A stretch of DNA of 64,000 bases. It comes from Ianthella basta (taxonomy: Eukaryota; Porifera; Demospongiae; Verongiida; Ianthellidae). Shown here piece by piece: positions 32,301 through 60,500 of the stretch. Under the pieces are notes generated by a model that was not told the origin of the DNA, did no database searches, and saw nothing but the letters and a program-made list of their open reading frames with translations. The stretch spans positions 5,279,517-5,343,516 of the forward strand of contig OZ025881.1 of assembly GCA_964019415.1 (NCBI GenBank), written 5' to 3'. Both the position numbers and the translations under genes were made by a program. Position 1 is the stretch's first letter, and each line of letters starts with the position of its first letter.

Positions 32301-35300
32301 TAGGCTGTGCAAGGAGTGTACCAGAAATGAAGCGGAAGATGTGACGCATTGGCTTCTGAGATGTCCAGCATGGAACAGCCATCAACAGCCATTGTTGCCT
32401 GAAGTCCAATCACACACAGAAGACGCAGAATGCACAGCTCACCTACTGTCCCTTGCTTGTAGGAACTACAACATTTTGTCCACTATTATGTCAATGTGGT
32501 ATGCTCGGTTTGGCAAGTTGTAATTAAGACTCTATGTGTTGGTCTCATCTCTTTCCCCTTCCTGTTGTAGTCACAATGGCACAATGCTTTTTCCTGTTAG
32601 CTATGGCACAGATATCCTGATTTACTCATCAACTAACCATCTACACAATGTTTCTTATGTTTGTGTGTGTTACATTGGACCACAGTGAGTCTTAGTGCCA
32701 CCATGTGGCATGGTGCACGTTAATAATGATTGAATTGAATTGAATTGTATATGTCGGGCAATTCAAGATGGCGGCACTCGTGGTCTACGCTTTACAAGGC
32801 TCGCAATCATCTATGTTCGTATTTCGCCGTATATTTATCAAACGAAATTAAAACATAGATATGTGTTTACACGATAACACTAGTAAGAAGCCTATAGAAA
32901 CACTCTCCTGTGAGATATAGCTCCAAATATCATGAAGACCGAGCGACGGGCATTATAAAATGGCGGTGCTCTGAGATGAGTCGCTATCGACTTACTACAT
33001 TTAAGCTTCCTCTATTGCATAGTGCTTTTTAAATTAGTTAATGCGGGCTTAGAGCCATTTGTTCATTATAATATACCAACGCTATGAGGTTCCTTGGATG
33101 AATTGGCTTGATTTTCAACCGAAAAGCCTGATATTGCGCATGATGGGAAGCTAGTTAGCTACCCTCGTGGAGTTCGTCGAGACAAGAGAACAGCACTGCG
33201 CACCGAAGTGTGCAAAGGTTAGTACTCCTAGAGGAATCGAAATTACACTATGGGCAGGTAACATGCGCCGAAATGTTACTCCATTTACAACAGACCTTGC
33301 TAGCTGACGCTCTGTCTCTCACTCGTGTGTGTGTGTGTGTGTGTGTGTGTGTGTGTGTGTGTGTGTGTGTGTGTGTGTGTGTGTGTGTGTGTGTGTGTGT
33401 GTGTGTGTGTGTGTGTGTGTGTGTGTGTGTGTGTGTGTGTGTGTGTGCACATGTGTGTTTGTGTGTGGTTGTTCTGGTGACTTGTGTGTTTGTGTGTGGC
33501 TGTTCTGGTGACTTGTGTGTTTGTGTGTGGCTGTTCTGGTGACTTTAAACTCTTGCAAACCCAACAGTCTATTGCATCTTGATGTATATTTCAGGCCATC
33601 AGCATTGCTGTATCCCCAACTTTCTGAGCTACTGAACATTCATGTGGAGATTGCTAGCAAGTAGTTCGAGTTCACGTTTTTTTTTTTAATTCGAAATACT
33701 TGTTTGGTAATGTTTTAGCTCGAAGTATATGGCCTTGGGTGACATGAACTATGTATATATGTTACACGCATACCTCCAACTCTTGACCACGTGACCGGAA
33801 ATGCTCTTCTCAAGAGAAAGGAAGTGGGTGGATGGCAAAAGGATGGGCCTCAAGTTTCCAGGTTGATGATTACACTGAGCCTATGACATCATGGCACAGA
33901 CAGTCCATTACAATGCTATTTAATTGCATTATAATTATAGCTGCCCCACTGCAGTGCCGAGAGTGAAGAAAAGCGCCACACTGTCCAAGAAATCAAGAGA
34001 TTCAGTCATGTGATGCAAGCTCCAAGTTACGGTCAAAAACTTTCAGCGCTAGAAGACCAACACTAACCGAAGATCATCAGGAGTCAGCTCAAGGGGAGTC
34101 AGCTCAAGGGGAATCAGCTCAAAGAAATGACTAGGAGTCAGCTCAAGGAAACAACAAAGAATCAGCTCAAGGAAAGAACCATTGTTCTTCCCTTGAGCTG
34201 ATTCTTTGTTGTTTCAGACTCCTGCCTGCAGGCAGGAGTCAGCTGAAAGGAACTGGGAGTCATCTCAAGTGGACCAACAGGAGTCAGCTTCGCTTACTTT
34301 GGAGGGTGATGCATGGAGGAGTAGGGGGCACATGCTCAATCCAGAGTCACCACCTGGAGTCAGTTTAAAAGAAGAGCCAGGAGTCAGCTGCATGCCACTG
34401 GAGTCATCTCAAGGAGATCAACAGGAGTCAGCTCCGTTTACTTTGTAGGGTGATTTGTGGAGGAAAAGGAGACATATCAACTGCATTCACTTAATAATGA
34501 CAATGTTGGACCCAGTCACCGCTCATCATGAGTCATGACAACTCCACCCCTATGTCACATGCTTAAAGTGGCCTTGCATGCCGCCATTCTGTATCACTCT
34601 TCTTGCTCTCAGAGTTTTGTACTTGCATATATGACTTCAAAGGTCCTAGAGAATTGGTCACACCTTTGTCTACATTCCTACAGACATCGAACATATCCAC
34701 ATTCTTGGCCAGACATTCCATCTGTACGTGGTTATGCACTAAAGCGGGAAGGCTCTTTTGAAGGATGCAGATATAATGCAGCCTGTGCAATATAAGTCTC
34801 ATCAGTAGTTGGAACAGAAGCAGTACCATCCCCAGGCTAGGATATTCTGTTCTATTGCTGCTCAGCATTAAAGACTTTCTCATAAGCCTAGAGACACACC
34901 TCCTGTACATATGACTAATTCACACTGGTTCACCAAGCCAGACAAGAGACCATCCAAGTTGGCCTGTCACTCCTTTTTCTCCAGCTCACTGACAGCAGTC
35001 TGCTTCCACCAAGCACAACATGCTGTGTTGCGCTGGTGCTCAGATTATGCCATTCTGCTGACTCTTTTGCCTCGCTATACAAGTGAGGCTAATATAAGAA
35101 TTACATAGCTGCAAGCGGGCTATTCGACTCAGAGTGATGCATGCTTCCTCTGTGCGATGTGTTTGTGGTTAGAAATAACTTACATTCCCAGTGCATAACA
35201 GCCCTTCCTCCTTGTGGGTGGGTCAAGCTACATATGCTTGACAAAGATAGATGCTCCCCTATGTATACATCAGCTTATGTTTCATCAGATGTCACATTGT

Positions 35301-59899: not shown

Positions 59900-60500
59900 T
59901 ATACATAGGGGAGCATTTATCTTAGGCAGGCATATGTAGCATAACCCCCTCACAAGGAGGAAGGGCTGCTATGTACTTCTGACCACAAATACATTGCACA
60001 GAAGAAGCATGCATCACTCTCTGAGTCGATTAGCCCACTTGGAGTTTTTGCATGCATGTGATTCCTATATAAGCCTCACTTGAATAGCAAGGCAAAAAGG
60101 TCAGCAGAATGGTACAATATCTCTATGCTTATGAGAAAGTCTCAAATGCTGAGCAGCAATAGAGCAGAATATCCAAGCCTGGGGATGGCACTGCTTCTGT
60201 TCCAACTACTGATGAGACTTATATATTGCACAGGCTGCATTATATCTGCATCCTTCAAAATAGCTTTATTAATTCCCTCTTTAGTGCAATGTCATGTACA
60301 GATGGAAAGAGTGGAGGATGTGAATATGTTCAATGTCTGTACGAACGTAGACAAAGGTGTGACCAATTTTAAAGGACCTCTGCATGAAGTCATATATGCA
60401 TGTACAACACACTGAAGAGCAAGAAGAGCAATAAAGACACTTTAAACATTCAACATGTGCAGGTGCAGTTGCCATGACTCATGGTGAGCAGCAACTGGGC
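59900..60500. repeat. Segment matched in inverted orientation at 34560-35110
   Basis: Upstream of exon 2 of gene D this segment is homologous to the DNA upstream of exon 2 of gene A, in the opposite orientation. Confidence 0.8.

Follow-up and report, generated by a model that had tools for sequence, protein, structure and literature searches.

The 64,000-nucleotide stretch of Ianthella basta DNA analyzed here (the window) carries FMO genes that face one another in mirrored order. This raises the question of whether the locus records a genuine inverted duplication and, if so, how far its two arms have been corrected by exchange with each other.

Extent and gene content of the mirrored locus

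Self-BLAST was run on the window and then on the window extended by 10 kb to the left and ~20 kb to the right. Comparison of the left arm (21.0-48.9 kb) with the right arm (68.2-48.9 kb) gave a chain of 22 colinear inverted blocks totaling 6,238 aligned columns, while a direct-orientation control on the same two arms returned 0 matches at E 1e-3. The chain runs from 21.3/67.9 kb, beyond the right window edge, inward to 47.7/50.2 kb, and its best purely noncoding block scores E 1.6e-76. The inverted duplication is thus genuine and is bigger than first described: the preliminary description placed it at 34560..60500, and all the pairs it named are indeed inverted, but its limits were too narrow. 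On the left arm, the blocks farthest out (21335..23912, plus strand) contain the first exon of gene A and pair in inverted orientation with 67922-66845; identity is 72.7% in the 355 columns of 21335-21649 and 89.5% in the 753 columns of 23168-23912. The arms measure ~19-27 kb each within a locus of ~47 kb, and since block midpoints drift from 44.6 to 48.9 kb the left arm is the longer. The arms match colinearly across noncoding as well as coding DNA, as in an inverted segmental duplication or palindromic gene cluster. Sex-chromosome palindromes have arms that are near-identical over their whole length; here noncoding identity ranges from 94% down to the random level. A central spacer (47698..50150, neither strand) separates the main arm matches and contains dispersed inverted-repeat elements at 49682-50130. 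The sequence at 49682-50130 is a short dispersed element with inverted ends, for which 40 of 275 first-look genome candidates were scored.

The order along the plus strand is A(+), B(+), spacer, C(-), D(-), E(-). The order A-B-centre-C-D reported earlier, with A and B on plus and C and D on minus, is borne out, with the addition of E on the minus strand beyond D. The count of two FMO genes per arm holds for the left arm, which consists of A, B and fragments of exon 3, but not for the right, which carries C, D and E, D having no exon 1 that we could find. Complete genes encode 425-426 amino acids in three exons (197 nt, 279 nt, and either 802 or 805 nt) bounded by GT/AG splice sites. On the plus strand, A comprises exon 1 (23366..23562, encoding the FAD-binding GxGxxG, donor AG/GT), exon 2 (35326..35604) and exon 3 with its stop codon (35836..36637); tblastn gave no better exon 1 candidate from 23366-23562 as far as A exon 2 (lowest E 0.086). 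B comprises 42099..42295, 42543..42821 and 46788..47592 with stop, also on plus, and a tract near-identical to C runs from 46785 to about 47690. On the minus strand lie the three exons of C (52203..52399, 51629..51907 and, with stop, 50260..51061), exons 2 and 3 of D (59559..59837 and, with stop, 57263..58064) and exons 2 and 3 of E (61901..62179 and, with stop, 61014..61815). The exon 1 assigned to E, at 67392-67196 (minus), lies beyond the window, in L011. Intron 1 of A, ~11.8 kb long, houses a reverse-transcriptase reading frame (30304..32523, plus; 739 codons stop to stop; RVT_1 E 1.6e-27) that is absent from every block of the mirror chain.

The genome searched comprised 209 Mb in 96 contigs, the window lying on contig C14. 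At E 0.001 or better there were four exon 1 matches (A, B, C and 67392-67196), five exon 2 matches, and eight exon 3 matches by DNA or seven by protein. All of them fall on C14 at window positions 16.5-67.4 kb. Exon 3 is represented by five full copies and by fragments at 16.5, 38.5 and 38.8 kb, of which the latter two are decayed exon-3 ends at 38483..38935 (plus) with an in-frame stop. By eye, the first of these two (38483-38797) is E-like and then A-like, likely a recombinant remnant, and the second is E-like. The outer cassettes break the strict mirror order, with the flank of A pairing with D and the E-like remnants sitting downstream of A.

As whole proteins, A and E match PF00743 (FMO-like, Pfam) at 216.7 and 204.6 bits against a cut-off of 22, and the exon 3 reading frame of C scores 92.4 bits by itself. 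Inspection of the translations by eye located the FAD motif GAGASG in exon 1 and FKGRVMHSYAY or FKGRLMHSYAY, plus GAG(G/A)SG, in exon 3. All three FMO motifs are therefore present (FAD GxGxxG, FMO-identifying FxGxxxHxxx(F/Y) and NADPH GxGxx(A/G), with the consensus as given in part of PMC2862711). D would lack the exon-1 FAD motif unless another exon 1 is used. The B and C proteins differ only in exon 1 and in their last residues. When gene B was the query, with a single residue of exon 1 set to that of A and C, the best match to a solved structure was 5nmw (residues 1-424, E 7e-86). We take 5nmw/5nmx to be the FMO of the grasshopper Zonocerus variegatus. Together, the motifs and the closest solved structure predict FMO chemistry: the products would be FMOs of the 5nmw type that oxygenate soft nucleophiles with the help of FAD, NADPH and oxygen. 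They share motifs and a similar length (here 425) with 5nmw/5nmx and with the lepidopteran FMO/PNO family as outlined in sections of PMC2862711. Unlike these, the genes here form a mirrored cluster, and whereas the moth FMOs in that account have a signal peptide, no leader precedes the first GxGxxG here.

Noncoding DNA of the arms

The inverted matches extend well outside the exons. The flank upstream of A exon 2 (34480..35318, plus) mirrors the D flank (59844..60530, minus; self-BLAST), its partner 60530-59844 agreeing at 85.3% of ungapped columns with 217 columns gapped. The pairing of 34560-35110 with 59900-60500 was recovered by self-BLAST as 34480-34894 with 60530-60120 (80%) and 35044-35683 with 60118-59480 (84%), and that of 39105-40080 with 55603-56540 as 39465-39707 with 56059-55824 (72%) and 39745-40110 with 55916-55575 (73%). 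Mirrored noncoding blocks also occur in A intron 1 (28353..29240, plus; partners within 66855-64544) and throughout the interval from A to B (39097..41300, plus; partners within 56557-53237). The B and C promoters, which had been described as paired, do match for ~100 bp above the ATG (81%), but the next 300 bp are at 36%, the random level; likewise, their 3' flanks pair for ~100 bp past the stop codon (92%) and then fall to 45%.

Four noncoding stretches were searched against the whole genome. In three of them (28429-29240, 34480-35300 and 39465-40481), the mirror partner ranks first among non-self matches, the result for 39465-40481 being among 40 scored of 1368 first-look candidates. Each of these three stretches also contains pieces that match elsewhere, mainly different pieces from those that are mirrored; in 34480-35300, one piece with a mirror partner overlaps a repeat in part. 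Two of the three mirrored pieces in 40836-41300 match nowhere but here, while for 40836-40933 a match on contig C1 (77.9 bits) equals the mirror partner (78.8 bits). Individual mirrored blocks are thus not all unique in the genome. Because the mirror partner is the sole scored match for most of the noncoding pieces tested, the matching goes beyond exons, and a reading in which only exons match is ruled out by the mirrored noncoding blocks and these searches. A dispersed repeat of ~175 bp lies at 40126-40301; the query that contained it was the one with 1368 first-look genome candidates, 40 of them scored.

Conservation of the noncoding DNA is very uneven. The first 350 bp of intron 1 are 94% alike between A and E, and 20 comparisons of flanks within the same class (inner with inner or outer with outer) gave values from 39% to 90%. 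The remaining 32 of the 52 flank comparisons, each of ~150 bp with a few bases beside the exon left out, set inner against outer genes and all fell at 36-55% identity, one of them above the maximum of a random control (30 pairs of 300-bp stretches; mean 43%, maximum 53.5%). The 150-bp flanks of D and E are only 39-50% identical, yet their third exons have a dS of 0.16. Since noncoding DNA is erased this fast even between close copies, introns at the random level are not by themselves proof of old age.

Cassette D

D has intact splice sites and an open frame, and would join the exon 1 of E in frame. A search of the interval from D exon 2 to E turned up no exon 1 belonging to D (best tblastn E 1.2), although a very different first exon could have been missed. 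These features raise the possibility that the exon at 67.2 kb is spliced alternatively to E and to D, the latter serving as a live alternative 3' cassette. The substitution pattern makes us grant this reading a minor chance only. Counting only sites at which the other two outer copies agree and dropping the others, we find 9 silent changes and 20 replacements on the D branch, a neutral-like ratio (p=0.68) that gives no sign of constraint, against 26/13 on the E branch and 28/29 on the A branch; D differs from A and E combined at p=0.02 in one uncorrected test. With so few substitutions, even an unconstrained D stays stop-free in 31% of substitution-only simulations. Given that no exon 1 was found and no constraint was seen on its branch, D is probably a decaying orphan cassette rather than a working gene, apparently a copy whose first exon either went missing or was never there.

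Within intron 2 of D, the stretch at the start of the intron recurs (58203-58264 and 59480-59541; 62 columns, 85%), the two copies being separated by ~1.2 kb of additional sequence.

Probable exon conversion and the proposed history of the cluster

The third exons of B and C are identical at 796 of 798 compared bases; both differences are silent, and the encoded amino acids are the same until the last codons. A repeat listing gives 100% for this pair, and base-by-base comparison corrected this apparent perfect identity by revealing two mismatches before 47584. Silent differences number 2 at 182 silent sites, compared with 66 differences at 226 sites of intron 1 (p=8e-17) and 9 at 102 silent sites of exons 1 and 2 combined (p=0.002), such that a tract with nearly all silent sites identical lies within a more diverged alignment. 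The upstream edge of the tract is sharp: only 3 bases of unbroken identity precede exon 3, and identity in the final 100 bp of intron 2 is 69%. Inner and outer genes differ in exon 3 at a dS of 0.34-0.38, which indicates that silent sites in this exon are able to change. On the strength of the silent sites and the sharp upstream edge, we firmly infer from this one assembly that exon 3 of B and C was homogenised between the arms by gene conversion. The longest silent-identical run between B and C takes in 48 of the 63 variable silent sites (p=0.0021 by permutation, or 0.021 when corrected for 10 pairs), while none of the other nine gene pairs gave a p under 0.12. This run extends beyond exon 3, since its first site (192) falls in the latter half of exon 2, exon 3 starting from 279. 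The earlier proposal that such clusters can be corrected by recombination from arm to arm therefore appears to hold for B/C exon 3, but not for the arms as wholes given the divergence of their noncoding DNA.

The donor in such a conversion could also have been a spliced mRNA copied back as cDNA, which would produce exon-bounded homogenisation in the cluster, acting on exons and the 3' untranslated stretch while sparing introns. The B/C tract does start at the exon 3 splice acceptor and extend ~100 bp beyond the stop codon, the silent-identical run bridges the end of exon 2 and exon 3, and exons in general are alike where introns are not (inner-outer exons at dS 0.08-0.38 against 32 flanks at 36-55% identity). 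Nevertheless, we regard a cDNA donor as improbable. Ordinary DNA conversion bounded by dissimilar introns yields the same edges, and the likeness of exons 1 and 2 of B and C, each taken whole, predates that of exon 3. Moreover, the tract does not end in step with a polyadenylation signal: no AATAAA/ATTAAA occurs in the 500 bp following B, and C has one only at 321 bp. Our search of the open-licence PMC literature returned nothing on 'cDNA-mediated gene conversion'.

Somewhat more improbable still is that no conversion took place, with selection keeping B/C exon 3 alike including its silent sites and the remainder reflecting ordinary decay after duplication. The exon trees show no clear conflict, and exons 1 and 2 of B and C are likewise far closer (96-98%) than their intron 1 (71%, with 84 gapped columns), as this explanation would have it. 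It must nevertheless account for 2 changes at 182 silent sites beside 66 at 226 intron sites, in an exon whose silent sites have evidently been free to change between inner and outer copies.

Gene conversion remains the favored explanation for B/C exon 3, and traces of it may exist elsewhere. Silent differences between A and E in exon 1 (9/43) exceed those in the adjacent intron (21/344, p=0.003) but show no excess over the upstream flank (25/191, p=0.23); tentatively, exon 1 of one of the two may have been overwritten from an inner gene. Exon 2 of C and D shows an excess (Fisher p=0.005, one of 10 pairs) that is suggestive, but only suggestive, of conversion of D exon 2 from C. The best exon-1 tree groups A with E and B with C, and tests on exon 1 did not exclude a tree in line with exon 3; nor does exon 2 reject the exon-3 topology (p-AU 0.29). 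Because such trees are not rejected and flanks are lost fast even between D and E, conversion outside B/C exon 3 is proposed only tentatively. Fixed differences between inner and outer third exons comprise 24 silent and 45 replacement changes; adaptive divergence was set aside as a reading of this count, because the tally loses any silent site that mutated once more in one of the outer copies.

That the assembly joined two haplotypes of one gene region head to head, as the near-identity of B/C exon 3 and the close match at the start of A/E intron 1 might suggest, is very unlikely indeed, given that facing copies outside B/C exon 3 are at dS 0.09-0.33, that intron 1 of B and C differs by 29%, that the arms are unlike in gene number, mobile elements and intron lengths, that no N occurs across 93,983 bp, and that one exon-1, one exon-2 and one exon-3 query found no copy on any other of the 96 contigs.

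In our judgment, the locus quite probably arose through an ancient inverted duplication that was followed by exon conversion, of which only that of B/C exon 3 is firm. The mirrored order of genes and intergenic blocks suggests that a segment with one outer and one inner FMO gene was duplicated once in inverted orientation. Subsequently, the noncoding DNA drifted, suffered deletions and took up mobile elements unequally, changes that are visible in the present arms. A second outer cassette stands on the right, where D lies beside E, and has only exon-3 remnants as its counterpart on the left; as regards the cluster expansion envisaged earlier, either one arm gained an exon 2-exon 3 cassette or the other lost one. 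More recently, exon 3 of the inner genes would have been homogenised between the arms by conversion, with the tract halting at the splice site, presumably because the facing introns were too dissimilar to pair, and D would have been left as a decaying orphan. The locus may therefore provide a compact natural case of how far conversion reaches between inverted copies whose introns have already drifted apart, and of how, in an oxygenase family, the central pair of proteins stays near-identical as the outer ones grow apart.

Conversion between inverted paralogs has been inferred in Caenorhabditis, for example in the hsp16 and hsp70 pairs of C. elegans, and the portion of PMC3966223 describing it notes that conversion is mostly reported for exonic regions, with introns diverging faster and possibly impeding it. 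Like those pairs, the FMO cluster has opposed copies and inferred conversion; in contrast to them as portrayed there, it carries 2-3 cassettes in each arm of ~19-27 kb, and its noncoding DNA is heavily decayed. Human 'Flowers', adjacent large repeats that include inverted ones, are likewise locally duplicated and partly inverted gene-family regions, and FMO is named in one enriched class in a part of PMC3388347. According to that part, 'Flowers' measure between 51 kb and 11.7 Mb and have minimum identities of 77.7-100%, whereas the FMO locus covers ~47 kb and drops to lower identity. The locus is consistent with the ideas of both papers, to the extent of these portions, and is a new example of them; among the papers listed from open-licence PMC, titles and the beginnings of abstracts yielded no mirrored FMO cluster of this kind.

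The window contains no RNA family at gathering threshold and no tRNA, and neighbouring proteins carry EGF, PH and LRR domains. Just outside the cluster, L011:7999-9540 (minus; window coordinates 71982-73523) holds a 514-codon reading frame that matches Pyr_redox_2 and presumably resembles OSGIN. Toward the other end, an open frame at 15681-16208 (plus) encodes two diverged ubiquitin units (PF00240, 186.6 bits) and adjoins the decayed exon-3 fragment at 16310-16738 (minus). A ubiquitin tail fragment also lies near A, at 37812-37759, and the 16310-16738 fragment together with the ubiquitin end matches 36332-37811, inverted, in two pieces. Finally, a unit of 81-87 bp occurs at 25915-26082 as two head-to-tail copies with 98-99% identity.
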